The position numbers were made by a program, and so were the translations under genes. From positions 1 through 64,000 of the forward strand of contig NZ_VICC01000005.1 of assembly GCF_006546825.1 (NCBI RefSeq): a stretch of 64,000 nt of DNA, written 5' to 3'. Under the pieces are notes generated by a model that searched no databases, was not told the DNA's origin, and worked only from the letters and a program-made list of their open reading frames with translations. Source of the DNA: Actinomyces oris (GTDB taxonomy: Bacteria; Actinomycetota; Actinomycetes; Actinomycetales; Actinomycetaceae). Positions within the stretch are counted from its first letter, which is position 1. Every line of letters starts with the position of its first letter. Shown piece after piece: positions 1 to 11,195 of this stretch.

Positions 1-2411
1 CTGCCCGCTGTCTGGTAGGCGGTGGCGAGGTTGTTGCGTGAGAGCAAAGTGTCGGGGTGGTGGGGTCCCAGGACGTGGGTGCGGTCGTCGAGTGTCTGCT
101 CGTGCATGGGGATGGCTTCGTCGAGCCTGCCCGCTGTCTGGTAGGCGGTGGCGAGGTTGTCGCGTGAGGCGAGGGTGCCGGGGTGGTGGGGTCCCAGGAC
201 GTGGGTGCGGTCGTCGAGTGTCTGCCCGTGCATGGGGATGGCTTCGTCGAGCCTGCCCGCTTCCCGGTAGGAGGTGGCGAGGTTGTTGCGTGCGGCCAGG
301 GCGTCGGGGTGGCGGGGGCCCAGGATGCGGGTGCGGTCGTCGAGGGTCTGCTCGTACAGGGTGATGGCCTCGTGGAGCCTGCCCGCGTCCTGGTAGGCGC
401 TGGCGAGGTTGTTGCGTGAGGCCAGGGCGTCGGGGTGGCCAGGGCCCAAAGCTTCGCCTGCCTGCGTGACAGACTCGCTGAGAGTGAGAGCCAGTTGTGG
501 CATCCCAAGGTCGGTCGCATTCCACAGAGTCGTTGCTAGTAGTGCAGCAAAATCTGGATTGGAAAATAGTGGGCGAGAGTAGTCTTGAGATGTGGCGGCA
601 CTTATTTGTTCGACGAGATTGCGTGTTTCCTGTCGCTGCTGTTCAAAATATTCTATCCGGTCTACGTCGACCTCGTTGAGAAGGGTCGTTGTGTGCGCAC
701 GTACCTCGTTGAGCTTCTCTTGGTTGCTCAGGTAAGTTTCGCGGTAAACTTGCCCCTGGAGGCGGTGAATGATGGTCTTGTTGCCGTCAATGGATTCTTG
801 GAGAATTGATGCACTCTTCAGGAATGACAGAGTGTCTCGAACTGCGTCGGAGTCGTCGTCAATCTCCAGAAGCCAGTGAGTCGGCACTCCGGAAGCGGCG
901 AGAAGGGACAGTATGCCAAGGAGTAAGGTGGCGATGCTCTCCTGCTGAGGGTGCTTGGTTCTGAGTTGTTCCAAGACCTGCTCGTACGCCATGAACAGTG
1001 CGACCCCGACGGCATCCGGGTAGTCATCTCCCTCGAGGCGGCTGATGCTTGACTCGAGAGGGTGATTGCTCAGCCTCTCAAGATAGCTGGACAGAGAGTA
1101 TCGCCCTGACTTGGCTGTTGCGGCCGCTTGGGCCACGGCGACAGGGAGGTCGCCGAGCGCCTCTGCGATCTGGTTGGCCGCATCTCGGTGAGCGTCACCG
1201 GTGCGTTCGCAGAGGAGAGTGATCGACTGCTCCCGTTCAAAGATGCCAACCGTCAACGGAAGCCACCCCAAACTGTCCCAATCGAGGTGGCGTGTGGTGG
1301 TGGCGATGACCCGAACTCCGCTGCCCTCAGGGGTAAGATCTCTCAGGTCGTCGAGATTCTCCACGTTGTCGAAGACGAGGAGACGGTCCGCCGCATCTGC
1401 TGAGCGTAACTGATCCAGGAAGCGCCGAATAATATTCTCCGGAGGGACATCCTGTGGTGCGTTGATGCCTGCCCGAAGTGCGAACTCATAGAGATCGGCG
1501 ACAAGATCCTTGCGGGAGGCTGCATTGATCCATGCGACCAGGGGCCAGCCCTCCTCTTCAGACTTGGCGGCAACCGCGGCTGCCAGCTGAGTCTTACCGC
1601 TTCCTCTCATACCCGTCAGAACTGTCTTCGGTTCCGCGTTGGTGAAGACGGCATCGAAGAACTCGTCTTGCCCTTCTCGCTTGACGAAGCCTGTAGTGAC
1701 CTTGGGGCGACTACCGAAGCGAATCCGCGTGGGCAAGGCAGATTGGTTTCGAGTGACCGCTCTATGGATCTCCTGGATATCCGTAGCCATCGCCTTGGTG
1801 TCGGAAGCCACTTCCCTCACGCGGTCGTTAGTCTCTGCCTGCCCTTCCAGCAGTCGCTCCTGTCCGGCACGTAGCTGCTCCTGGCCTGCGAGCAGTTGCT
1901 TGAGTGCGGCGAGGTCGAAGGCCCGTGAGCCTGGTGCGTGATAGATTAATTCCGAGGCAACGATGCGAATCAGATCGTTGAAGAAGGACTCGGCTGCCGT
2001 CTCGACGTTCTGGCGGCGGCCAGCCGCTCGCCGTCGGAGGTAGGTCTCGAAGTTGTCCGGGAATCGTACGGCCTCAAGGACTGCGGCGTCGTCCCCACTG
2101 AGCTCCTTGAGCGCCACCTCCATCTCGGTGACGGCTCCGGCCAGGGCGGATTGAGTGGCTCCGGTCCGCTTGTACCGCTCGCTGGCGTCCTCCACCTGCT
2201 TCTGAAGTCGGGCCTTGATGGACGCCTCCAGCGGATTCTCCTGTCCACCTCGCCCCTGCTGCAGACGTCTCAGGCTGCGCCACGCGTTGAGGACATCGTT
2301 AGGCAGCGATGCCGCGCTGCTCCATGAAGGATCCACGGCCACAGCGGCTCCGCGCATGAGCAGCCCGGTGATGCTGGCAGACAGGACAGCGAAGGAGAGG
2401 GGATCGGCCAT
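1..2411 (-). CDS. NB-ARC/TPR STAND-type ATPase, paralogue 1 (3' end beyond window)
   Basis: Reading leftward from the ATG at 2411, the frame stays open to the window edge (803 codons), so the C-terminus is missing. Seen: an alpha-helical N-terminal region of about 180 residues beginning MADPLSFAVLS; a QLLAG/GQ-rich linker; a Walker A motif GMRGSGKT near residue 267; a Walker B-like LLVFDNVEN; a GDLPVA motif (the GLPL motif of NB-ARC proteins); an IHRLQG motif in the MHD position; then kinesin-light-chain-like TPR units of 42 residues (LGPxHPxTLxSRNNLA...), four of them begun inside the window. Known: such STAND proteins sense a ligand through their repeats and oligomerise on ATP exchange. The ligand is not evident. 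The N-terminal domain is shared with paralogue 2 and the post-NB-ARC region with paralogue 3, so the gene is mosaic. No strong Shine-Dalgarno; a small hairpin lies directly upstream of the ATG. Confidence 0.85.
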   Translation of the reverse strand, partial: MADPLSFAVLSASITGLLMRGAAVAVDPSWSSAASLPNDVLNAWRSLRRLQQGRGGQENPLEASIKARLQKQVEDASERYKRTGATQSALAGAVTEMEVALKELSGDDAAVLEAVRFPDNFETYLRRRAAGRRQNVETAAESFFNDLIRIVASELIYHAPGSRAFDLAALKQLLAGQEQLRAGQERLLEGQAETNDRVREVASDTKAMATDIQEIHRAVTRNQSALPTRIRFGSRPKVTTGFVKREGQDEFFDAVFTNAEPKTVLTGMRGSGKTQLAAAVAAKSEEEGWPLVAWINAASRKDLVADLYEFALRAGINAPQDVPPENIIRRFLDQLRSADAADRLLVFDNVENLDDLRDLTPEGSGVRVIATTTRHLDWDSLGWLPLTVGIFEREQSITLLCERTGDAHRDAANQIAEALGDLPVAVAQAAATAKSGRYSLSSYLERLSNHPLESSISRLEGDDYPDAVGVALFMAYEQVLEQLRTKHPQQESIATLLLGILSLLAASGVPTHWLLEIDDDSDAVRDTLSFLKSASILQESIDGNKTIIHRLQGQVYRETYLSNQEKLNEVRAHTTTLLNEVDVDRIEYFEQQRQETRNLVEQISAATSQDYSRPLFSNPDFAALLATTLWNATDLGMPQLALTLSESVTQAGEALGPGHPDALASRNNLASAYQDAGRLHEAITLYEQTLDDRTRILGPRHPDALAARNNLATSYREAGRLDEAIPMHGQTLDDRTHVLGPHHPGTLASRDNLATAYQTAGRLDEAIPMHEQTLDDRTHVLGPHHPDTLLSRNNLATAYQTAG

Positions 2412-2412
2412 G

Positions 2413-2430
2413 CCGCTATCGTACAAGCGG
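2413..2430 (-). promoter_or_regulatory. Hairpin immediately upstream of paralogue 1 start codon
   Basis: On the minus strand CCGCT and AGCGG arms enclose 8 bases and end one base before the ATG. The same element sits at 5627-5644 before paralogue 2, within a block of about 45 bases conserved between the two upstream regions. This suggests a shared 5' untranslated control element, but function is inference; the arms are only 5 bp. Confidence 0.35.
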
Positions 2431-2583
2431 TCAGCGGCGCCGAAATAGAATTTTCACGACATTGACTGACTCGGCGGCGACGAGCTCGACGAGGTGGTGG
2501 GTGAAGGCGGTGTGCGCGTCATCGAGCACGCGCCCGTGGAAGGTGCGCCCCAGGTGCCAGTCGGAGGTGTGGAGGATCCGCAT
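2431..2583 (-). pseudogene. sbcD: sbcD 5' fragment (exonuclease SbcCD subunit D, first about 41 codons)
   Basis: From ATG 2583 the minus strand encodes MRILHTSDWHLGRTFHG followed by RVLDDAHTAF and HLVELVAAESVN. This is the characteristic SbcD/Mre11 N-terminus including phosphodiesterase motif I (D8, H10). After residue 41-43 the similarity stops and the frame ends at 2431 in sequence belonging to the upstream region of the NB-ARC gene. The rest of sbcD (about 350 codons) and sbcC are absent nearby. The start codon and upstream flank look intact, so the 50-residue peptide could still be made. It is a recombination scar: the NB-ARC cassette begins where sbcD breaks off. A decayed second copy lies at 8209-8348. 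Confidence 0.8.
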
Positions 2584-2634
2584 GCGGACACTGTCTCACA
2601 GCCCACCGACATCAATGACGGCGCCCTGTGGCGG

Positions 2635-5625
2635 TCAGTCGCCGGCTTCCTGATCCGGGTCCTCCTCGGTGCCGTCCTGGTCGTCCTCTGAATCCGACGG
2701 CGTCTCAAAGAGTGCCTCCGCCTCTTCAATTCGACCTGCGGTACGATAAGCATCGGCGAGTCTATGGCGTGTGTTGAGGGTGTGGGGGTGGTGGGGTCCC
2801 AGGATGCGGGTGCATCCTTTGAGGTTCCGCTCGAGCAGGGTGATGGCCTCGTTGAGTCTGCCTGTGGCTTGGTAGGCGCAGGCGAAGTTGTCGCGCGTGA
2901 AAAGTGTATCGGGATTGTCTGGGCCCAGGATGTGGATGCAGTCTTTGAGGTTCTGCTCGAGCAGGGGAATGGCCTCGTCAAGCCTGCCAGCTGTCTGGTA
3001 GGCGTTGGCGAGGTTGTTGCGTGAGAGCAGAGTGTGGGGGTGATATGGGCCCAGGATGTGGATGCAGTCTTTGAGGTTCTGCTCGAGCAGGGGAATGGCC
3101 TCTTCGATTTTGCCTGCGTCCCGGTAGGCGTTGGCGAGGTTGTTGCGTGTGGCGAGAGTGTCGGGGTGGTTGGGGCCGACGAGACGTGTACGATCCTGAA
3201 GGTTCTGTCGGTAGAGGGTGATGGCGTCTTCGAGTCTGCCCGCCTCCTGGTACGCGTTGGCGAGGTTGTTGCGAGACGCCAGAGTATAAGGGTGGTCGGG
3301 GCCCAGGAAGTAATCGGTATCAACGAAGTTCTGCTGGTAGAGGGTGATGGCTTCGTCGAGCCTGCCCGCCTCCCGATAGGCGCCGGCGAGATTATTACGA
3401 GAGGCAAAGATCTCGGTGTGATCGGGCCCTAGGGTGTGGGGATGATCTTTCTGAATCTGCTGGTGATGTGTGGTGACCTTATTAATCCCGCCACCTGCTC
3501 GGAGAGTGCTCATGAAGCTATTTCTCAGTTTCTGGGTATTGTGATGAGTGGTGTCAGGAATTGTCTTGGAATGCTTGAGATTCTGTTCAAGTAAGGCGAT
3601 GGCCTTCTCGACCTGGCCTTCTAGTAGGTAGGCGTCAGCCAGGCTTTTTCGCGAGCTGAGGATGTCGGGATGACCTGCTCCTAAAGTGTCACTAGCCTTC
3701 GCGACCGAATTAACGAGGGTCAGTGCGGCCTGGTACATTCCGAGTTCCAAGGCTGTCCGTAGTGTTCTTTCGAGTATTGTCGCCATGGCGGGTTTAGTGA
3801 ATAAAGACTGTGAATATTCCTGTGATGCAATGGCGCTTAGCTGTTCAATGAGGTCGTACATCTCCTCTCGTTCTCTGGGTGGGTTATACGAGGTGTGTGC
3901 GACAACGTTTTCCAGAGTCTGGATTATCGAAGTCAGGATATATTCCTTTTCTGCCTCGTTGATTAGATAATTTTCCCTGAAGGCGCGTCCTTGAAGTCGG
4001 TGAATTAAGGCCTTTCTATTGTCTGTTGAGGTCTGACATAACGAAGAATTGAATAGCGCACTGAGTGACTTCTTGGCATTCTCTCGATCAGCATCTTCTT
4101 CCAGCCAACGGATTGGCACTCCTGGAGCGGCGAGTAGCGACAGCATGCTTATCTGTTGAATCGCCAATCTTCCCTGCTTAGGGTTCTTTCTCTTGATAAT
4201 GTTTACTGTCGTCTTGCAGGCTAGCCACAATGCGGTGCTGACGGTTTCGGGGTAGTTGCCACCTTCTCGCTTTTCGATGGTGGTAGCCAGAGGAAAGCTG
4301 TTTAGTCTGTCCAGGTATTCGGAGAGGGTGTATCTTTCGTTGCGGGCTGTTGTGGCCGCCTGGGTTACGGCAACGGGAAGGTCGCCGAGCACCTCTGCAA
4401 TCTGGTCGGCTGCGTCGCGGTTGGTGTCGTCAGTGCGCTCACAGAGGATACTAATCGATTGGTCTCGTTGGAAAGTGCCTACCCTGATAGGTGACCAACC
4501 CAGACTATTCCAGTCAAGGTGACGCGTGGTTGTAAGGATGACTCGAATTCCATTTCCGCGAGGGATGAGTCCCTTGAGGTCGTCAAAGTTGTCCACGTTG
4601 TCGAAGATAAAGAGGCGGTTCGTAGTGTCGGCCGAACTCATCGCGTCCAGGCAGCGCTGTATGGCGATGTCCGGACGGGTGCTTTTCGGTGTGTCGGTGC
4701 TGATTCGTGTGGCGAGTTCGTAGAGATCGGCAACAAGCTCCTTGCGTGAGGCCGCATTGATCCATGCAACTAGGGGCCAGTCCTCTTTCTCGCATTTGGT
4801 GGCGATTGCGGCAGCCAGTTGAGTCTTGCCAGTACCTCGCATTCCGGTCAGGACTGTTTTCGGTTCAGCGCGAGTGATGATAGCATTGAAGAGTTGGCTC
4901 TCGACCGCCCGTGAAACGAAATTGGCGGTGACTGTAGGGCGGCTTCCGAAGTGAATCCGTTTGGGGGTGGTTTGTGATTGAGGGGGCGTGTTCCGAGTGT
5001 TGTTGATGCTGTCGACTATTTTATCCAGACGCTCGCGAGTCTCTGCTTGCCCCTTCAGCAGTTGATTCTGCCCGGCAACAAGCTGATCCCGGCCTGCGAG
5101 TAGCTGGTTGAACGCGGCGATGTCGAAGCCCCGGGATCCTGGCGTGAGGCGGATGAACTCGTCGGCGACGATGCGGGTTAGGTCGTCGAAGAAGGGCTCG
5201 GCTGTTGTCTCGACGTACCGACGGCGCCCGGCCGTCCTCCGTCGGAGGTACATCTCGAAGCGATCCGGGAACCGCACTGCCTCCAGGACTGTGGCGTCGT
5301 CCCCGCTGAGTTCCTTGAGCGCTACCTCGATCTCGGTGACGGTGCCAGCAAGGGCGGATCGAGTGACTCCGGTCCGCTCGTATCTTTCGCTGGCGGCGTC
5401 CACCTGTTTCTGAAGTCGGGCCTTGATAGACGCCTCCAGCGGATTCTCCTCGCCACCTCGACCCCGCATCAGGGTCCATATGCTGCGCCATGTGTTGACG
5501 GCCTCTCCAGGTAGTGATGCCGCGCTGCACCACGAAGGATCAACGGCCACAGCGGCTCCACGCATGACCAGTCCGGCAAGGCTGGTGGTCATGGACAGGA
5601 CAGCGAAGGAGAGGGGGTCGGCCAT
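2635..5625 (-). CDS. NB-ARC/TPR STAND-type ATPase, paralogue 2 (full length, 996 aa)
   Basis: Start ATG at 5625 (MADPLSF...), matching paralogue 1; a TTG five codons upstream is possible but less likely. Domains: helical N-terminus about 1-180; linker of repeated QLLxGQ units about 165-205; NB-ARC with Walker A GMRGTGKT (261-268), Walker B LFIFDNVD (338-345), TTTRH sensor-like motif and GDLPVA (414-419); winged-helix/linker ending at IHRLQG; then about eight 42-residue TPR units, one irregular, and an acidic tail (EDDQDGTEEDPDQE). The N-terminal third is close to paralogue 1, but the region after the NB-ARC is diverged and visibly AT-richer (roughly 3480-4300), pointing to replacement by recombination. 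It follows paralogue 3 after 42 bases, so the two are probably co-transcribed. Likely a sensor or defence-type NTPase; the effector activity is unknown. Confidence 0.88.
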   Translation of the reverse strand: MADPLSFAVLSMTTSLAGLVMRGAAVAVDPSWCSAASLPGEAVNTWRSIWTLMRGRGGEENPLEASIKARLQKQVDAASERYERTGVTRSALAGTVTEIEVALKELSGDDATVLEAVRFPDRFEMYLRRRTAGRRRYVETTAEPFFDDLTRIVADEFIRLTPGSRGFDIAAFNQLLAGRDQLVAGQNQLLKGQAETRERLDKIVDSINNTRNTPPQSQTTPKRIHFGSRPTVTANFVSRAVESQLFNAIITRAEPKTVLTGMRGTGKTQLAAAIATKCEKEDWPLVAWINAASRKELVADLYELATRISTDTPKSTRPDIAIQRCLDAMSSADTTNRLFIFDNVDNFDDLKGLIPRGNGIRVILTTTRHLDWNSLGWSPIRVGTFQRDQSISILCERTDDTNRDAADQIAEVLGDLPVAVTQAATTARNERYTLSEYLDRLNSFPLATTIEKREGGNYPETVSTALWLACKTTVNIIKRKNPKQGRLAIQQISMLSLLAAPGVPIRWLEEDADRENAKKSLSALFNSSLCQTSTDNRKALIHRLQGRAFRENYLINEAEKEYILTSIIQTLENVVAHTSYNPPREREEMYDLIEQLSAIASQEYSQSLFTKPAMATILERTLRTALELGMYQAALTLVNSVAKASDTLGAGHPDILSSRKSLADAYLLEGQVEKAIALLEQNLKHSKTIPDTTHHNTQKLRNSFMSTLRAGGGINKVTTHHQQIQKDHPHTLGPDHTEIFASRNNLAGAYREAGRLDEAITLYQQNFVDTDYFLGPDHPYTLASRNNLANAYQEAGRLEDAITLYRQNLQDRTRLVGPNHPDTLATRNNLANAYRDAGKIEEAIPLLEQNLKDCIHILGPYHPHTLLSRNNLANAYQTAGRLDEAIPLLEQNLKDCIHILGPDNPDTLFTRDNFACAYQATGRLNEAITLLERNLKGCTRILGPHHPHTLNTRHRLADAYRTAGRIEEAEALFETPSDSEDDQDGTEEDPDQEAGD

Positions 5626-5667
5626 GCCGCTATCGTACAAGCGGTCAGCGGTGCCGAAACAGAATTC

Positions 5668-8094
5668 TCACGGCGTCCCGAAGAGCTTCTTCGCTTCCTC
5701 GGTTCTCCCTGCGGCAAGGTAGGCATTGGCGAGGTTGTTGCGCGAGGTGAGAGTGACAGGGTGAGCAGGTCCCAGGGTGCGGGTGCGGTCCTCGAGGTTC
5801 TGCTCGAACAGGGGAATGGCGTCGTCGATCCTGCCGGCTGCCTGGTAGGCGCTGGCGAGCGTGCTGCGTGAGGTGAAGGTGTCGGGGCGGTCGGGACCCA
5901 GAATGCGAATGAAGTCGGTGAGGTTCTGCTCGAACAGGGGAATCGCCTCGTCGAGCCGGCCCGTATCCCGGTAGGCGCCGGCGAGGCTGTGGCGTGAGGC
6001 CAAGGTTTCAGGATGGTCGAGGCCCAGGGCGCGGCTAACCTCGGCGAGGTTCTGCTCGAACAGACGGATGGCCTCGTCGAGCCTGCCGGCGTCCCGGTAG
6101 GCGCCGGCGAGCGTGCCGCGCGAGGCCAAGGTTTCGGGATGGTCGGGCCCAGCGAGGCGGGTGAAGTCGGTGAGGTTCTGCTCGAACAGGGGGATGGCCT
6201 CGTCGAGCCTGCCCGTATCCCGGTAGGCGCCGGCGAGGCGGTACCGTGAGGCCAAGGTTTCAGGATGGTCGAGGCCCAGGGCGCGGCTAACCTCGTCGAG
6301 GTTCTCCTTGTACAGGGTGATGGCTTCGTCGAGCCTGCCCGCATTCCGGTAGATGGCGGCGAGGTTGAGACGTACGGCCGAGGCGCCGGAGCTGTCGGGA
6401 CCCATGATGCGCAAGGCGTCTGCGAGGATCTGCTTCTTCAGGGTGATGGCCTCGTCGAATCTGCCCGCCTCCCGGTAGGCTCCGGCCAGTTCGTCGCGTG
6501 ACATGAGGGTGCTGCGGTGGTCGGGGCCCAAGACGCGGCTGCGGCCGCTGAAAACCTGCTCGTACAGGGGGATGGCCTCACTGAGCCTGCCGGCTGTCTG
6601 GTAGGCGCCGGCGAGGTTGAGACGTGAGGTCAGGGTGCTGGGATGGTCGGTGCCCAAGACGCGGCTGCGGCCGCTGAAAACCTGCTCGTACAGGGCGATG
6701 GCCTTATCGAGCCTGCCGCTCGCCCGGTAGGTGCCGGCGAGGTTGTTGCGTGAAGCCAGGGTGTTGGGGTGGTGGGGGCCCAAAGCGTCGCAGACCTGGG
6801 TCACCGAGTCAGTGAGGCCAAGGGCTAGCTGCGACATCCCAAGGCTGGTCGCGTCGTGCAGTGTCTCGGCGAGCTTTGAAGACACCCGTGGCTCAGAAAA
6901 CAATGACTGAGAGTAGTCCTGTGATGTGACTGAGAGAAACTGCTCGATGAGATGGTGGGTCTCGTCTCGCCGCTGTTCACCATTGTCTAGGCGGTCAACG
7001 TCAATCCCGCTGAGAACTGATGTGGCGCACGTACGCGCCTCGCCGAGCTTCTTTTGGTCATTCAGGTAGGTTTCCCGGTACACGTGTCCCTGGAGCCAGT
7101 GAATAATGGTCTTGGTGCCGTCACTGGACTCTTGGAGGATGGCAGCGCTCTTCAGGAAAGACAAGGTGTCGCGTACTGCGTCGGAGTCGCCGTCGAGCCT
7201 CAAGAGCCAGTGAGTTGGCACTCCGGAAGCAGCCAGGAGGGACAGTGTGCCGAGGAGCGATACGGCGATTCTCTCCTGCTGAGGATGCTCGGTTCTGAGC
7301 TGCTCCAAGACCTGCTCATAGGCCATGAGCAGTGCGATACCGACGGCGTCGGGGTAGTTGGCACCCTCGAGGCGACTCATGCGTGACTCGAGCGGGTGAT
7401 GACTGAGCCTGTCGAGGTAGCCGGATAAGGCGTATCCACCCTGTTGTGCTGTCGTGGCGGCTTGGGTGATGGCGACGGGCACGTCGCCCAGCGCATCCGC
7501 GATCCGGTCAGCAGCTTCGCGGTGAGTGTCGCCAGTGTGCTCGCACAGGAGGGAGATCGACTGCTCCCGATCGAAGGAACCCACCGTCACCCGCAGCCAC
7601 CCCAGGCGGTCCCAGCCGAGGTGGTGCGGAGTGGTAATGAGGGTCCGAACTCCCGCTCCCTCGGGGATGAGATCTCTCAGGTCGTCCGGATTCTCCACGT
7701 TGTCGAAAACGAAGAGACGGTCCGCTGCCTCTGCTGAGCGCAGCCGATCCAGGAGGCCCCGAACAATGACCTCCAGAGGAATGTTCTTCGGTGCGTCGAT
7801 ACCGATCCGCAGCGCGAGCTTGTAGAGACCGGCAAGGATCTCCTTGCGTGAGGCCGCATGAATCGACGCCACCAGGGGCCAGCCGTCCTCCTCGCACCTG
7901 GCCGCAACCGCAGCGGCCAGCTGCGTCTTGCCGCTTCCCCGCATCCCCGTCAGAACCGTGCGAGGCTCGGCGCGAGTGAAGACGGCCTTGAAAAGCTCAT
8001 CCTGCTCCTGCCGCTTGACGAAACCTGGGGCGATTGCGGGACGACTTCCGAATCGAATGTGCGTGGGAGAAGCGGGTGGGTGGCGAGTGGTCAT
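5668..8094 (-). CDS. NB-ARC/TPR STAND-type ATPase, paralogue 3, lacking the N-terminal domain (808 aa)
   Basis: ATG 8094 is preceded by a plausible ribosome site (GGGGAG, nine bases away). The protein starts just before the conserved IRFGSRP segment, so it lacks the roughly 200-residue helical N-terminus of its neighbours. Seen: Walker A GMRGSGKT (50-57), Walker B LFVFDNVEN (127-135), GDVPVA, IHWLQG in the MHD position, then nine TPR units of 42 residues. Units 5 and 7 are nearly identical at DNA level, as are parts of units 1 and 2, which indicates recent internal duplication. Upstream codons remain in frame with paralogue 1 but contain two stops (see 8095-8208). It could be a truncated but translated sensor that lacks its effector or oligomerisation domain, or a gene in decay. 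Confidence 0.82.
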   Translation of the reverse strand: MTTRHPPASPTHIRFGSRPAIAPGFVKRQEQDELFKAVFTRAEPRTVLTGMRGSGKTQLAAAVAARCEEDGWPLVASIHAASRKEILAGLYKLALRIGIDAPKNIPLEVIVRGLLDRLRSAEAADRLFVFDNVENPDDLRDLIPEGAGVRTLITTPHHLGWDRLGWLRVTVGSFDREQSISLLCEHTGDTHREAADRIADALGDVPVAITQAATTAQQGGYALSGYLDRLSHHPLESRMSRLEGANYPDAVGIALLMAYEQVLEQLRTEHPQQERIAVSLLGTLSLLAASGVPTHWLLRLDGDSDAVRDTLSFLKSAAILQESSDGTKTIIHWLQGHVYRETYLNDQKKLGEARTCATSVLSGIDVDRLDNGEQRRDETHHLIEQFLSVTSQDYSQSLFSEPRVSSKLAETLHDATSLGMSQLALGLTDSVTQVCDALGPHHPNTLASRNNLAGTYRASGRLDKAIALYEQVFSGRSRVLGTDHPSTLTSRLNLAGAYQTAGRLSEAIPLYEQVFSGRSRVLGPDHRSTLMSRDELAGAYREAGRFDEAITLKKQILADALRIMGPDSSGASAVRLNLAAIYRNAGRLDEAITLYKENLDEVSRALGLDHPETLASRYRLAGAYRDTGRLDEAIPLFEQNLTDFTRLAGPDHPETLASRGTLAGAYRDAGRLDEAIRLFEQNLAEVSRALGLDHPETLASRHSLAGAYRDTGRLDEAIPLFEQNLTDFIRILGPDRPDTFTSRSTLASAYQAAGRIDDAIPLFEQNLEDRTRTLGPAHPVTLTSRNNLANAYLAAGRTEEAKKLFGTP

Positions 8095-8208
8095 GCTGCG
8101 GATCTCCCCGATGTCCTTCGTCGTCGTCCTCAGTGGCTCGCGAGTCTACGCTGACCTCAGGGGCAACTGGTCCTACTCGGCCATGAGCTGCTTGAGTGGC
8201 GTGATGTC
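8095..8208 (-). pseudogene. Decayed N-terminal linker of paralogue 3
   Basis: Read in the same frame as paralogue 3, this stretch encodes FDITPLKQLMAE, a TAG stop, DQLPLRSA, another TAG stop, then TREPLRTTTKDIGEIRS leading into the ATG at 8094. It aligns with the linker of paralogue 1 (AFDLAALKQLLAGQEQL ... DIQEIH). The gene therefore once had a longer 5' part and lost it through nonsense mutations plus replacement by the sbcD fragment. Confidence 0.7.
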
Positions 8209-8348
8209 GAAGGCGGCGTGCGCGTCATTGAGCACGCCGCCCGTGGAAGGTACGCCCCAGGTGCCGGTCGGAGGTGTGGGGGAGACCCGCCTGCGGGCAC
8301 TGTTTCACAGCCAACTGACATCCATGACAGCGCCTTGCGGCGTCAGTC
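8209..8348 (-). pseudogene. sbcD: Second, degenerate sbcD 5' fragment with upstream flank
   Basis: This block matches 2503-2640 over about 140 bases, including the sequence upstream of the sbcD start. The former ATG is mutated, the conserved Trp of HTSDWHLG reads Arg, and an extra G shifts the frame after TFHGR. The similarity passes directly into the paralogue 3 linker at AHAAFD, where sbcD and the NB-ARC gene share a few bases. It marks a second sbcD/NB-ARC junction. Confidence 0.75.
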
Positions 8349-8395: not shown

Positions 8396-8677
8396 CTAGA
8401 TAAGAGCCGTGCTGGCTGCAATCAACCCGAAGATGACTCCCGGAAAGTTAGCCGCGGCCAGAGGTAGGTCGCGCTTCTCTTTGCACAGTCCATAAATGAC
8501 CCACAACGTGCAGTTCACTGCCGCTACGGATGGCTGGATGAAGTCTCCCTTGTTACCGTGCAAGTTGCCGATAATCTGTGGAATGTACGACACGTACATC
8601 ATCACTGACATCGCAGTTGCGACCCATCCGAGAGTCTGCATGCGCTTCTCTTTAGTTTGTGCGCGTTCCTCTGCCAT
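8396..8677 (-). CDS. SemiSWEET-type small sugar transporter
   Basis: A 93-residue protein with three predicted membrane helices (about 14-34, 45-64 and 70-91) and the PQ-loop signature MMYVSYIPQI in helix 1, as in bacterial SemiSWEET half-transporters, which dimerise to move sugars down their gradient. The length is right for the family (85-100). Start ATG 8677 has an AAGGGA site nine bases upstream. It stands alone, with the decayed sbcD segment downstream and a 321-base gap upstream. Substrate cannot be told from sequence. Confidence 0.8.
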   Translation of the reverse strand: MAEERAQTKEKRMQTLGWVATAMSVMMYVSYIPQIIGNLHGNKGDFIQPSVAAVNCTLWVIYGLCKEKRDLPLAAANFPGVIFGLIAASTALI

Positions 8678-8998: not shown

Positions 8999-9835
8999 TC
9001 AGGCGGCGATGGTGCCGGCGGCTACCAGGGCGATGATGATGAGGCCCAGCAGCACGCGGTAGACGAGGAAGGACGTGAACTTGTTGGAGGACACGAAGCG
9101 CAGCAGCCAGGCGATGGTCGCGTAGGCGACAACGCCGGAGACGACGGTCGCGACAATGGTGGGCGTCCAGCCCACGGTGTTGCTGATGGTGCTGGCCTCC
9201 GTTGCGGCCTCCAGCAGTCCGGCCGCGACCAGGGATGGAATACCCATGTAGAAGGACAGGCGCGTGGCCGTCACCCGGTCGAACTTGAGGAACAGGCCGG
9301 CGGAGATCGTCGCCCCGGAGCGGGAGATACCGGGGAACACCGGGGCCAGGGCCTGGAATGCGCCGATGATGAGGGCGTCCTTGACGGTTACGTCCTTCAT
9401 GCCCTTGGTGAGGTTCTGCTGGTGGTCGGCCAGCCACATGGCCCCCGACCAGATGATGAGGGCTCCGGCGATCACCCACAGGGAGCGGACCGGCCCCTCG
9501 ATGAAGTCCTTGAACAGCAGTCCGACGGCGGCCACCGGGATCGATCCCAGGATAATGCCCCAGCCGAGCGTGTAGTCGGGGTCCTGGCGGGCCTGCTGGT
9601 TGCTCAGTCCCCTGAACCAGGCGGTGACGATGCGGACGATGTCGGCCCAGAAGTAGATGATGGCGGCGATGATCGCACCGACCTGGATGACGGCGGTGAA
9701 GGCGGTCATGCCGGCGGAGTTGATCTCGTAGCCGAGCAGCTTCTCGACGATGTTGAGGTGACCGGTGGAGGACACCGGGAGGAACTCGGTGATGCCCTCG
9801 ACGATGCCGAGGAGGATGGCGTGCAGCCAGTTCAA
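8999..9835 (-). CDS. uppP: Undecaprenyl-diphosphatase UppP/BacA
   Basis: A 278-residue polytopic membrane protein that recycles undecaprenyl diphosphate to the monophosphate carrier used for peptidoglycan and surface glycans; the family confers bacitracin tolerance. Both signatures are present: EGITEFLPVSSTGH near the N-terminus (Glu-rich motif) and FPGISRSGATI in the second half. The start is a TTG at 9833-9835, supported by AGGAG six bases upstream; no ATG fits. Length matches E. coli BacA (273). Monocistronic as far as can be seen. Confidence 0.95.
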   Translation of the reverse strand: MNWLHAILLGIVEGITEFLPVSSTGHLNIVEKLLGYEINSAGMTAFTAVIQVGAIIAAIIYFWADIVRIVTAWFRGLSNQQARQDPDYTLGWGIILGSIPVAAVGLLFKDFIEGPVRSLWVIAGALIIWSGAMWLADHQQNLTKGMKDVTVKDALIIGAFQALAPVFPGISRSGATISAGLFLKFDRVTATRLSFYMGIPSLVAAGLLEAATEASTISNTVGWTPTIVATVVSGVVAYATIAWLLRFVSSNKFTSFLVYRVLLGLIIIALVAAGTIAA

Positions 9836-10082: not shown

Positions 10083-11195
10083 TCACTCCATGACGAGGTG
10101 TGCTGCGTGCTCGCGCAGGTACTCGCGCAGATAGGGAGCGGCGAAGTCGACTTTGCCGTAGCCGGCGGTCTTGATGATTCCGGCGGCGAGCAGCCGGTTG
10201 CGGTAGACCGACACGTAGTTGACGGGGCGGTCCATGCGTTCGGCGATGTCGGCGATCTGTGACGGGCCGTCGTCCTTGGCCATGCACACGAGCATCGTGC
10301 GGTCGACGTCGGACAGGTCGCGCAGCGCTGGAGCGTGCACCAGGTTGCCGAGGCGCAGTCGGGCGGCGGTCGTTCCTGCGGCGACTGCTGGTTGGGTCAC
10401 TGGGCCATCGCCGCTGTGTTTCCACACCTGGTACCCCACGAGTTGGATCATGAATGGGTAGCCGCCGGTCGCGTTCGCGCACTCCTGAGCCAGGTCGTTG
10501 CTCAGCGCCTTCTCGCCCGCGTCGAAGGTCGACTTCAAGGCGTCACAGACGTCGTCGATGGCCACCTCGCCGAGCTCGATCCGCTCGGCCCGGCGCAGGA
10601 AGGTGGTGATGTCGTCATTGAGGAGCTCCTCAACGGCCTTGGGGAGGCCCGCCATGAGCAGGCCGATAGGAGCCCCCTCGCGAATGAGGTGCTGTACCTC
10701 TGCGGACAGGGCTCGCAGCTCCTCGCGCGGAATGGCATGTACTTCGTCGATCGTGAGCAGCAGACCGGTGCCGTGTTCCGCGAGCCACTGGGTCAGTGCT
10801 CGCGCTTTCTGCCGCCAGGAGGGCTCAGGAGTAGGTGCGTGCTCGAGTGTCGCGCTACCGCCACCAAGCGGTGTGCTCAGGCTCAAGGAGGTCAGCCGTG
10901 AGCGCTCCTTGCCGGCGAGCTGCGACAGCTGGCGAGTGAACTCGGCGGCGAGTCGGTCCATGAGCCCCTCGCGTGCGGTCTCATCAACGACCACCCAGCC
11001 GCGCTCTCGTGCCGAGTCTCCCAGAGCGGTGAGCATGACGGTCTTCCCGACGCCCCTGGCGCCAGTGATGAGCTCCAGGAGCCCAGGCGCTCCGGGGCCG
11101 TCGTCGAGGCTTTCCAGAAACTCCTCAATGACGCGGTTGCGGCCAACAAGCAACGGAGGCGTTGCTCCCGCTGTCGGTTTGAAGGGGTTGGCCAT
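10083..11195 (-). CDS. AAA-type ATPase with C-terminal winged helix (ORC/Cdc6-like ATP-binding protein)
   Basis: A 370-residue soluble ATPase. Walker A GARGVGKT (45-52), Walker B LLLTIDEVH (145-153), an arginine-bearing FLRRAERI segment, a lid region with GGYPFMIQLVGY typical of archaeal-type ATPases, and a C-terminal winged-helix domain with IADIAERMDRPVNYVSVYRNRLL. Proteins of this build act in stress response, toxin control or as STAND-like regulators, and no specific role can be assigned. Start ATG 11195 has GGAG nine bases upstream. The gene stands alone between uppP and hisN and is flanked by short direct repeats (10001, 11238), so recent insertion is possible. Confidence 0.75.
   Translation of the reverse strand: MANPFKPTAGATPPLLVGRNRVIEEFLESLDDGPGAPGLLELITGARGVGKTVMLTALGDSARERGWVVVDETAREGLMDRLAAEFTRQLSQLAGKERSRLTSLSLSTPLGGGSATLEHAPTPEPSWRQKARALTQWLAEHGTGLLLTIDEVHAIPREELRALSAEVQHLIREGAPIGLLMAGLPKAVEELLNDDITTFLRRAERIELGEVAIDDVCDALKSTFDAGEKALSNDLAQECANATGGYPFMIQLVGYQVWKHSGDGPVTQPAVAAGTTAARLRLGNLVHAPALRDLSDVDRTMLVCMAKDDGPSQIADIAERMDRPVNYVSVYRNRLLAAGIIKTAGYGKVDFAAPYLREYLREHAAHLVME

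Follow-up and report, generated by a model that had tools for sequence, protein, structure and literature searches.

NB-ARC/TPR STAND genes in a variable chromosomal slot between uppP and sbcD of Actinomyces oris

The first 64 kb of contig NZ_VICC01000005.1 (contig C5) of Actinomyces oris, from a genome of 3.17 Mb in 19 contigs (GCF_006546825.1, here G000), is the stretch analyzed in this work and is referred to as the window. It begins with three adjoining paralogues on the minus strand; in transcriptional order, gene 3 occupies 8094-5668, gene 2 occupies 5625-2635, and gene 1 extends from 2411 past position 1. They encode STAND proteins with an NB-ARC core and C-terminal tetratricopeptide repeats (TPRs). 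We class the locus with the NB-ARC/TPR STAND receptors diversified by recombination and selection. Genomes, contigs and loci are designated by G, C and L numbers, and the genes consist of the following parts.

<1-2411, minus strand: gene 1, cut by the contig start, its frame open as far as the contig reaches
1722-2411, minus strand: NNH1-like helical domain of gene 1
1017-1721, minus strand: NB-ARC of gene 1
462-1016, minus strand: post-NB-ARC winged-helix/arm region of gene 1
<1-449, minus strand: TPR units of gene 1
2635-5625, minus strand: gene 2
4951-5625, minus strand: N-terminal domain of gene 2
4246-4950, minus strand: NB-ARC of gene 2
3691-4245, minus strand: divergent AT-rich post-NB-ARC region of gene 2, followed by TPR units and an acidic tail
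5668-8094, minus strand: gene 3, with NB-ARC, post-NB-ARC region and eight full TPR units, lacking the N-terminal domain

Architecture and mosaic make-up

A first-pass annotation of the window had described three adjacent paralogues with a common NB-ARC core that mix their remaining parts, and the open frames and pairwise identities bear this out. In the NB-ARC part, gene 1 is 62% identical to gene 2 and 70% to gene 3, and genes 2 and 3 are 56% identical. The N-terminal helical domain is shared by genes 1 and 2 (69%) and absent from gene 3. The post-NB-ARC region is instead shared by genes 1 and 3 (69%), compared with 39% between genes 1 and 2 and 37% between genes 2 and 3. The replaced part of gene 2 is AT-rich as annotated, with 47–52% GC at codons ~450–690 versus 54–65% in the remaining gene. 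The predicted TPR unit length of 42 residues is confirmed by the spacing, apart from one 84-residue interval in gene 2, in which a unit falls below the score threshold; post-NB-ARC and TPR blocks have been swapped. At the DNA level the repeat family D1 has 15 copies in 126-nt steps inside the three genes.

Relatives of these genes show the same kind of exchange. A gene of G018 falls inside the gene-3 clade in both the NB tree (with G039_a, 100/99) and the post-NB-ARC tree (99/98) yet carries the N-terminal domain, and is therefore a mosaic. Gene 2 pairs with G022_c in both trees (96/96 and 100/99). The post-NB-ARC tree also joins the long branches G001_b and G035_x, a grouping that may be false. 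The head of a G001 gene is 79–93% identical to that of G020; there follow ~450 codons of 41–50% GC without a real DNA match, after which the end matches again. The C-termini are also of two kinds among near relatives. Acidic tails, such as that at 2635-2710 in the window, are found only in genes adjoining sbcD or an sbcD fragment, and the upstream genes of arrays end in LFGTP-like sequences. In the distant G005 and G032 the gene ends do not fall into these two kinds.

The Pfam NB-ARC model is matched by gene 1 with 27.4 bits and by gene 2 with 28.5 bits (gathering score 23.5). Gene 3 gives no NB-ARC match at E <= 0.001, but its NB region is 70% identical to that of gene 1, as given above. All three genes contain Walker A, Walker B, GLPL and MHD-type motifs, according to the usual patterns of these motifs. 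A model of the gene-1 head (mean pLDDT 68.9) matches Apaf-1, NRC1, 6mfv and MalT, and has the nucleotide-binding oligomerization domain (NOD) fold seen in Apaf-1; L117, in which a stop was met, was left out of the structure alignments.

The N-terminal domain is modeled as helical with a long C-terminal helix (pLDDT 70.9, pTM 0.51). For NNH1 (PF22733) the gene 1 domain scores 23.0 bits, below the gathering score of 27, and eight of eight rows match at E <= 0.1; a relative in G023 exceeds the gathering score with 35.1 bits. The structure search proposed for this domain in the first-pass annotation returned nothing from the PDB at E <= 0.001. Sequence profiles found no solved relative at E <= 0.01, the one match at E 0.27 being a coiled-coil chimera. 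Residues 1–57 are modeled poorly, so the lack of a fold match is no proof of a new fold.

The most likely start codons of genes 1 and 2 are ATG at 2411 and 5625 rather than upstream TTG codons. Each is preceded by a candidate promoter element:

2418-2423, minus strand: TACGAT, putative -10 box of gene 1, six bases before ATG 2411
5632-5637, minus strand: TACGAT, putative -10 box of gene 2, six bases before ATG 5625

These boxes may be -10 elements with leaderless spacing, where we take a six-base distance after TACGAT to indicate a leaderless start. The gene 1 motif CTTGTACGATA recurs before gene 2 and before the gene of L207, and a remnant of it precedes six gene-3-type genes.

The variable slot between uppP and sbcD

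The array is bordered on its upstream side by uppP and accompanied by fragments of sbcD:

8999-9835, minus strand: uppP (BacA), left border of the slot (PF02673, E 1.6e-83; synteny)
8396-8677, minus strand: small transporter gene, MtN3_slv (SemiSWEET-like; PF03083, 28.8 bits, cut-off 23.7)
8208-8347, minus strand: degenerate sbcD upstream region and 5' end, 85.8% over 141 nt (direct repeat D8)
8095-8214, minus strand: remnant of the N-terminal domain that gene 3 has lost, with two in-frame TAG codons
2455-2583, minus strand: sbcD 5' fragment between genes 2 and 1, comprising the first 43 codons and the preceding upstream region

The last fragment matches TIGR00619 positions 1–43 (E 2.7e-9), and window positions 2456-2688 are 89.7% identical to the sbcD region over 233 nt of DNA. 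The transporter gene, which lies between uppP and the array, was matched elsewhere only in G001 among the loci searched. Upstream of uppP, at 10083-11195, is an AAA ATPase gene (AAA_16, 44.9 bits), a 370-aa frame found in several relatives, with weak BrxC/D similarity below the cut-off. A 225-residue tail of this TPR type stands at the end of contig C4; an intact sbcD on the same strand begins 51 bp beyond it, and sbcC comes next. This tail is probably the missing 3' end of gene 1. We infer the joining of C5 to C4 because the order uppP-array-sbcD-sbcC is unbroken in G020, G022 and others.

We found sbcD in all 49 genomes of the genus (own included), and the sequence upstream of it was taken from each as far as contigs and stretch lengths reach. 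STAND relatives lie between uppP and sbcD in 18 of the 49, some of them broken (G000, G001, G005, G012, G014, G018, G020, G021, G022, G023, G027, G032, G035, G038, G039, G040, G045 and G047). In G000, G014, G018, G021 and G040 the arrays are split over contigs and adjacency is deduced from both contig ends, while G023 and G027 were placed by the sbcD side only, uppP being absent from the upstream stretches taken. The slot is empty in 17 genomes, with a gap of 58–186 bp, including G030 whose sbcD is 93% identical. Ten others hold 757–6,788 bp of sequence with no STAND match, and four (G007, G013, G028, G034) are unclassified as uppP is outside the stretch taken. Comparison across Actinomyces genomes, suggested in the first-pass annotation, reveals variation both in copy number, from none to four genes (the largest array being that of G032), and in the number of TPR units. 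The array of G012 is interrupted by a DDE transposase gene, and the slot of G038 holds only an AAA frame and a TPR frame.

Other genes occupy the region as well. PADLOC identified HEC-01A together with HEC-01B, a label that we take to mean a candidate system, upstream of sbcD in two species: G023, 110 bp away and in addition to a STAND gene, and G034, ~1.1 kb away (L058:9394-11201 and L090:10202-12007). The survey of cargo was partial. From 82 frames upstream of sbcD in 22 loci, some beyond the gap proper, it took 10 for Pfam and 9 for PADLOC, to which one frame of L207 was added; of the ten frames run through PADLOC, four matched HEC-01, one (L081) had a weak ZorB/MotB-type match and five matched no model.

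At a contig end of G018 (L207, about 5980-6100) an sbcD fragment runs directly into the STAND promoter, just as it does in the window, and this common junction probably reflects an old tandem duplication of the gene together with the start of sbcD. Further sbcD 5' fragments of 99 nt occur at L059:7916-8014 and L091:2794-2892, each followed by a 124-aa frame and then by intact sbcD; the two frames cluster together and that of L091 has HTH-type matches. This arrangement suggests that the sbcD start was duplicated repeatedly and that genes were inserted. We set aside the idea that a mobile element brought in the array, as the sbcD 5' fragments fit duplication of the gene and sbcD start; integrases were not searched for. 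Insertion with long target duplication is a process known for restriction-modification genes; for this array plain tandem duplication suffices. Phage origin was also rejected, a scan of viral contigs having given one distant relative (28% identity) among 30 pattern matches. The simplest account of the locus is a STAND-type recognition switch that is gained, lost and recombined in this accessory slot, a chromosomal hotspot, with diversifying selection on the sensor of the full-length genes and a single truncated paralogue staying constant.

The genes at the gene-1/2 position are far more divergent than their surroundings. Across seven genomes (21 pairs) the median dS is 0.166 for uppP, 0.136 for sbcD, 0.177 for the 5' part of sbcC (the first 395–400 codons) and 0.192 for gene 3. 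For the gene-1/2 position it is 0.350 in the N-terminal, 0.598 in the NB and 0.701 in the post-NB-ARC part, such that synonymous divergence is ~2–5 times that of the flanking genes. Two genomes have two genes of this type, of which gene 1 (G000) and the first of two (G022) were compared; the other five, each with one such gene in the sequence taken, show the same contrast. Median dN/dS in the heads is 0.15–0.37. The gene-1/2 position is hypervariable, and its sensor blocks have been replaced by AT-rich DNA.

Of 213 genomes of the family, 31 have the N-terminal domain, 20 belonging to the genus and 11 lying outside it; they represent 5 of 36 genera. Off the slot we identified seven places in the genus (G003, G006, G016, G029, twice in G032, and contig 30 of G005) and ten places in nine genomes outside it, all with no uppP or sbcD match in the stretches taken; G083 and G209 were left out of this survey. 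Among the best 80 loci of named genomes, seven match from before query residue 60 and thus over most of the N-terminal domain, and for the remainder the match is chiefly to the NB-ARC part. A different genus of the family (L195, L196, L197, L200, L202) has STAND-TPR genes next to frames of 318–468 aa, those of L196, L202 and L200 resembling pyridine nucleotide-disulphide oxidoreductases below model cut-offs, with aceE near the L202 gene. This neighborhood is perhaps a second slot. The off-slot STAND genes of G003 and G016 have a Bcr/CflA-type MFS gene nearby, and that of G006 has a neighboring frame of similar size (L099, L100 and L101).

Conservation of gene 3 and replacement at ligand-facing positions

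Gene 3 behaves differently from its neighbors. The eight gene-3-type genes, our own and those of L043, L044, L045, L046, L048, L050 and L054, are all without the N-terminal domain. Upstream of six of them the promoter-like CTTGTACGAT is kept, along with an apparent old start broken off by a stop, and in G000 and G001 their place is taken by the transporter gene together with remnants of sbcD and of the N-terminal domain. Six of the eight genomes have eight TPR units (G000, G020, G021, G022, G040 and G039, whose gene differs at its C-terminal end); G001 has 13 and G014 has 16. The nearest units elsewhere are at the same rank for seven of the eight units in G000, G020, G021 and G022, and for two of eight in G040. 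Only 3 of 77 gene-3-type units have their nearest relative inside their own gene, compared with 27 of 47 units of the gene-1/2 type. These counts omit the five gene 1 tail units of contig C4, which were cut one residue out of register, and the genes G014_bn, G021_bn and G040_bn, none of which has as many as three complete units; G035 had no unit over the threshold. The median dN/dS of 0.37 for gene 3, versus 0.15 in the NB part of the other genes, indicates a gene that is constrained, though less so than that part.

The first-pass annotation had read the whole array as a diversifying recognition system and named fixed copy number and TPR sequence in conserved orthologues as evidence to the contrary. 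The gene-1/2 position, with a variable sensor on a conserved core, agrees with the former. Gene 3 partly resembles the latter: it is an orthologue whose divergence is close to background, and in most genomes it has eight units, mostly in matching order. It is probably a constant partner or modulator. Truncation of another kind is seen in three genes of two species (L056:9702-12332, L056:12497-15127 and L057:11128-13791), in which the N-terminal domain is joined straight to the post-NB-ARC region and 12 TPR units. None of these NB-less paralogues has a Walker A, Walker B, GLPL or MHD-type pattern.

We compared replacement among TPR units at positions expected to face a ligand. Unit residues 10, 13, 17, 20 and 21 correspond to TPR positions 2, 5, 9, 12 and 13; the offset of 8 follows from the agreement of L15, A16, Y19 and A28 with the TPR consensus and from N14 at position 6. 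According to the portion of PMC1261162 that treats these residues, position 6 is often Asn, and variability is greatest at positions 2, 5, 9, 12, 13, 33 and 34, which are situated on the concave face. In the closest same-gene pairs (21 pairs, up to 12 differences) the ratio of nonsynonymous to synonymous change (pN/pS) at the five positions is 3.0 (interval 1.5–10.2). With up to 20 differences it is 1.9 (1.3–3.2; 41 pairs), and with up to 30 it is 1.2 (0.99–1.5; 104 pairs). The other positions give 0.55, 0.54 and 0.51 in the same three sets. Random five-position sets reached the observed pN in 10 and 29 of 20,000 draws.

A second set of 125 units, from 21 loci outside the first (off-slot places and other genera; one of them, L208, is a contig end of G018), gives 3.0 (1.2–13.3; 23 pairs, 4 loci), and at wider limits 1.7 (1.2–2.9; 40 pairs, 8 loci) and 1.35 (0.98–1.9; 52 pairs, 13 loci). 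In a third set (L119-L191) there were 3 pairs, for which no ratio was calculated, and then 7 and 11 pairs with ratios of 1.4 and 1.5 whose intervals include 1. Within genes there is an excess of amino-acid replacement at the ligand-facing positions in two sets.

Function, alternatives and relation to known systems

We consider it probable that the locus is a small cluster resembling those of NOD-like receptors (NLRs), in which a STAND recognition switch with a diversified sensor mounts a response, probably against phage; an antiphage role would be the likeliest use. Genes 1 and 2 would be STAND switches in which an NNH1-like N-terminal domain acts as adaptor or effector, an NB-ARC ATPase is followed by the winged-helix/arm region, and TPR units of 42 residues form the sensor. 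On the model of Apaf-1, MalT and plant NLRs, a ligand on the concave TPR face would open an ADP-held switch and ATP would then drive oligomerization. The clustered N-terminal domains might in turn trigger a response such as abortive infection. The sensor would be diversified by loss and gain of TPR units, by swapping of whole post-NB-ARC/TPR blocks through recombination, and by selection on ligand-facing residues.

Several observations weigh against this reading. Foldseek returned no PDB match to the N-terminal domain at E <= 0.001, and hence no recognized catalytic fold. None of the three proteins matched a known Avs or bNACHT model in PADLOC, each having one partial match (mad8 at E 0.001, IetA at 0.0036, and a generic 'TPR repeats containing protein' at 1.9e-5). 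Cargo upstream of sbcD includes non-defense genes (OmpA family, an oxidoreductase with a rhodanese domain, flavin reductase, ABC transporter and hydrolase), and the genomes compared represent one per species rather than strains. Turnover does not affect every sensor, since in the distant pair G005 and G032 the units correspond one to one across the two species in a gene with 14 units and in an NB-less gene with 12. As for selection, synonymous changes are few in the tightest set (S 4, N 40) and the excess weakens with distance, to 1.9 and then 1.2. Between genomes pN/pS at the five positions is 0.44, 0.90 and 0.94, not above 1, and over all nearest pairs it is 0.70, 0.92 and 0.97. Positions 7 and 30, outside the ligand positions of the literature, vary as much, the unit pairs are not independent, and the five positions, while taken from the literature, were chosen when position entropies were already known.

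A more tentative proposal is that the cluster renews its repertoire without a retroelement, although diversity-generating retroelements (DGRs) were not searched for in this genome. TPR cassettes would be swapped between a conserved ATPase head and tail, and units would be duplicated and then positively selected on the concave face. Truncated paralogues, N-less here and NB-less elsewhere, would serve as constant partners, making the cluster a bacterial counterpart of sensor-helper NLR networks.

Allorecognition is an unlikely alternative. Here the receptors, like the NLRs of fungal heterokaryon incompatibility, would sense non-self proteins of neighboring strains and the variable sensor would serve kin discrimination in biofilm, in keeping with the hyperdiverse alleles at a fixed locus and with the repeat-sensor STAND layout that PMC10907252, in part of its text, names for fungal incompatibility proteins. 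However, a candidate defense pair lies upstream of sbcD in two species, and an empty slot in 17 of 49 genomes, the near relative G030 among them, is more in keeping with an accessory weapon or defense than with a self-marker. Still less probable is that the genes are decaying tandem duplicates without current function, their mosaicism being the product of drift and gene conversion. Signs of decay do exist, including the transposase gene in G012, an apparent frameshift in G018, an altered Walker A in G045, and sbcD fragments and N-terminal remnants as scars, but none of the three window frames is interrupted (gene 1 being followed to the contig limit), the heads have median dN/dS of 0.15–0.37, and within-gene pN/pS at the ligand positions is above 1 in two sets.

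It is very improbable that the genes guard SbcCD and fire when a phage inhibits the nuclease. The C4 tail ends 51 bp before the sbcD start on the same strand, and NB-ARC STAND relatives are upstream of sbcD in 17 of 49 genus genomes (with other genes between in some). But unrelated genes are also inserted there, the 7 off-slot places in the genus and 10 outside it have no uppP or sbcD match in the stretches taken, and a hotspot explains the position better. A TPR partner of an FxSxx-COOH/FxsB peptide-modification system (NF040586) can be practically dismissed: genes 2 and 3 exceed the cut-off of 300 with 378 and 420 bits (gene 1, cut by the contig end, reaches 263), but such scores fit the common NB-ARC-TPR layout, and FxsB was not found above its cut-off in our genome (the best TIGR04269 match has 81.7 bits versus 370 and lies at 229 kb on contig C4, well away from the array), no search for an FxSxx-COOH peptide gene having been made.

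An NLR-like receptor cluster can be set beside several known systems. With Apaf-1, MalT, the archaeal protein 6mfv and actinobacterial AP-ATPase-TPR proteins it shares the NOD core fold, motifs and C-terminal repeats, Apaf-1 itself carrying WD repeats. It differs from these NB-ARC/AP-ATPase STAND proteins in its NNH1-like helical N-terminus, clustering, mosaicism and truncated conserved paralogue. Fungal and plant NLRs also form tandem clusters with sensor variation at ligand-facing repeat positions and truncated paralogues; the array is like them in all three respects but is bacterial with a TPR sensor. The tripartite effector-STAND-sensor plan is that of Avs and bNACHT, as outlined in sections of PMC10907252, while the array has NB-ARC rather than NACHT and gives only weak or generic PADLOC matches. 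The DGR-diversified STAND sensors of multicellular bacteria, covered in the same sections of PMC10907252, likewise place a variable sensor on a constant STAND core. However, those are C-type-lectin sensors changed by retroelements, whereas here recombination and selection alter TPR units. In the portion concerned, Kaur et al. 2020 (PMC7159879) describe AP-ATPases with C-terminal TPRs in diversifying bacterial conflict systems, tied to vWA-MoxR or peptide-processing partners. No such partner was seen in the slot, with no dedicated search beyond FxsB. Among titles and abstract openings of the open-licence literature no publication on this locus was apparent, a statement confined to that literature.

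These results name uppP-sbcD as a concrete accessory slot where Actinomyces gain and lose NLR-like receptors. The locus is open to deletion and allele comparison, and offers a tractable bacterial setting for NLR-like receptor evolution, with cassette exchange, repeat expansion, selection on binding residues and truncated paralogues across close relatives.

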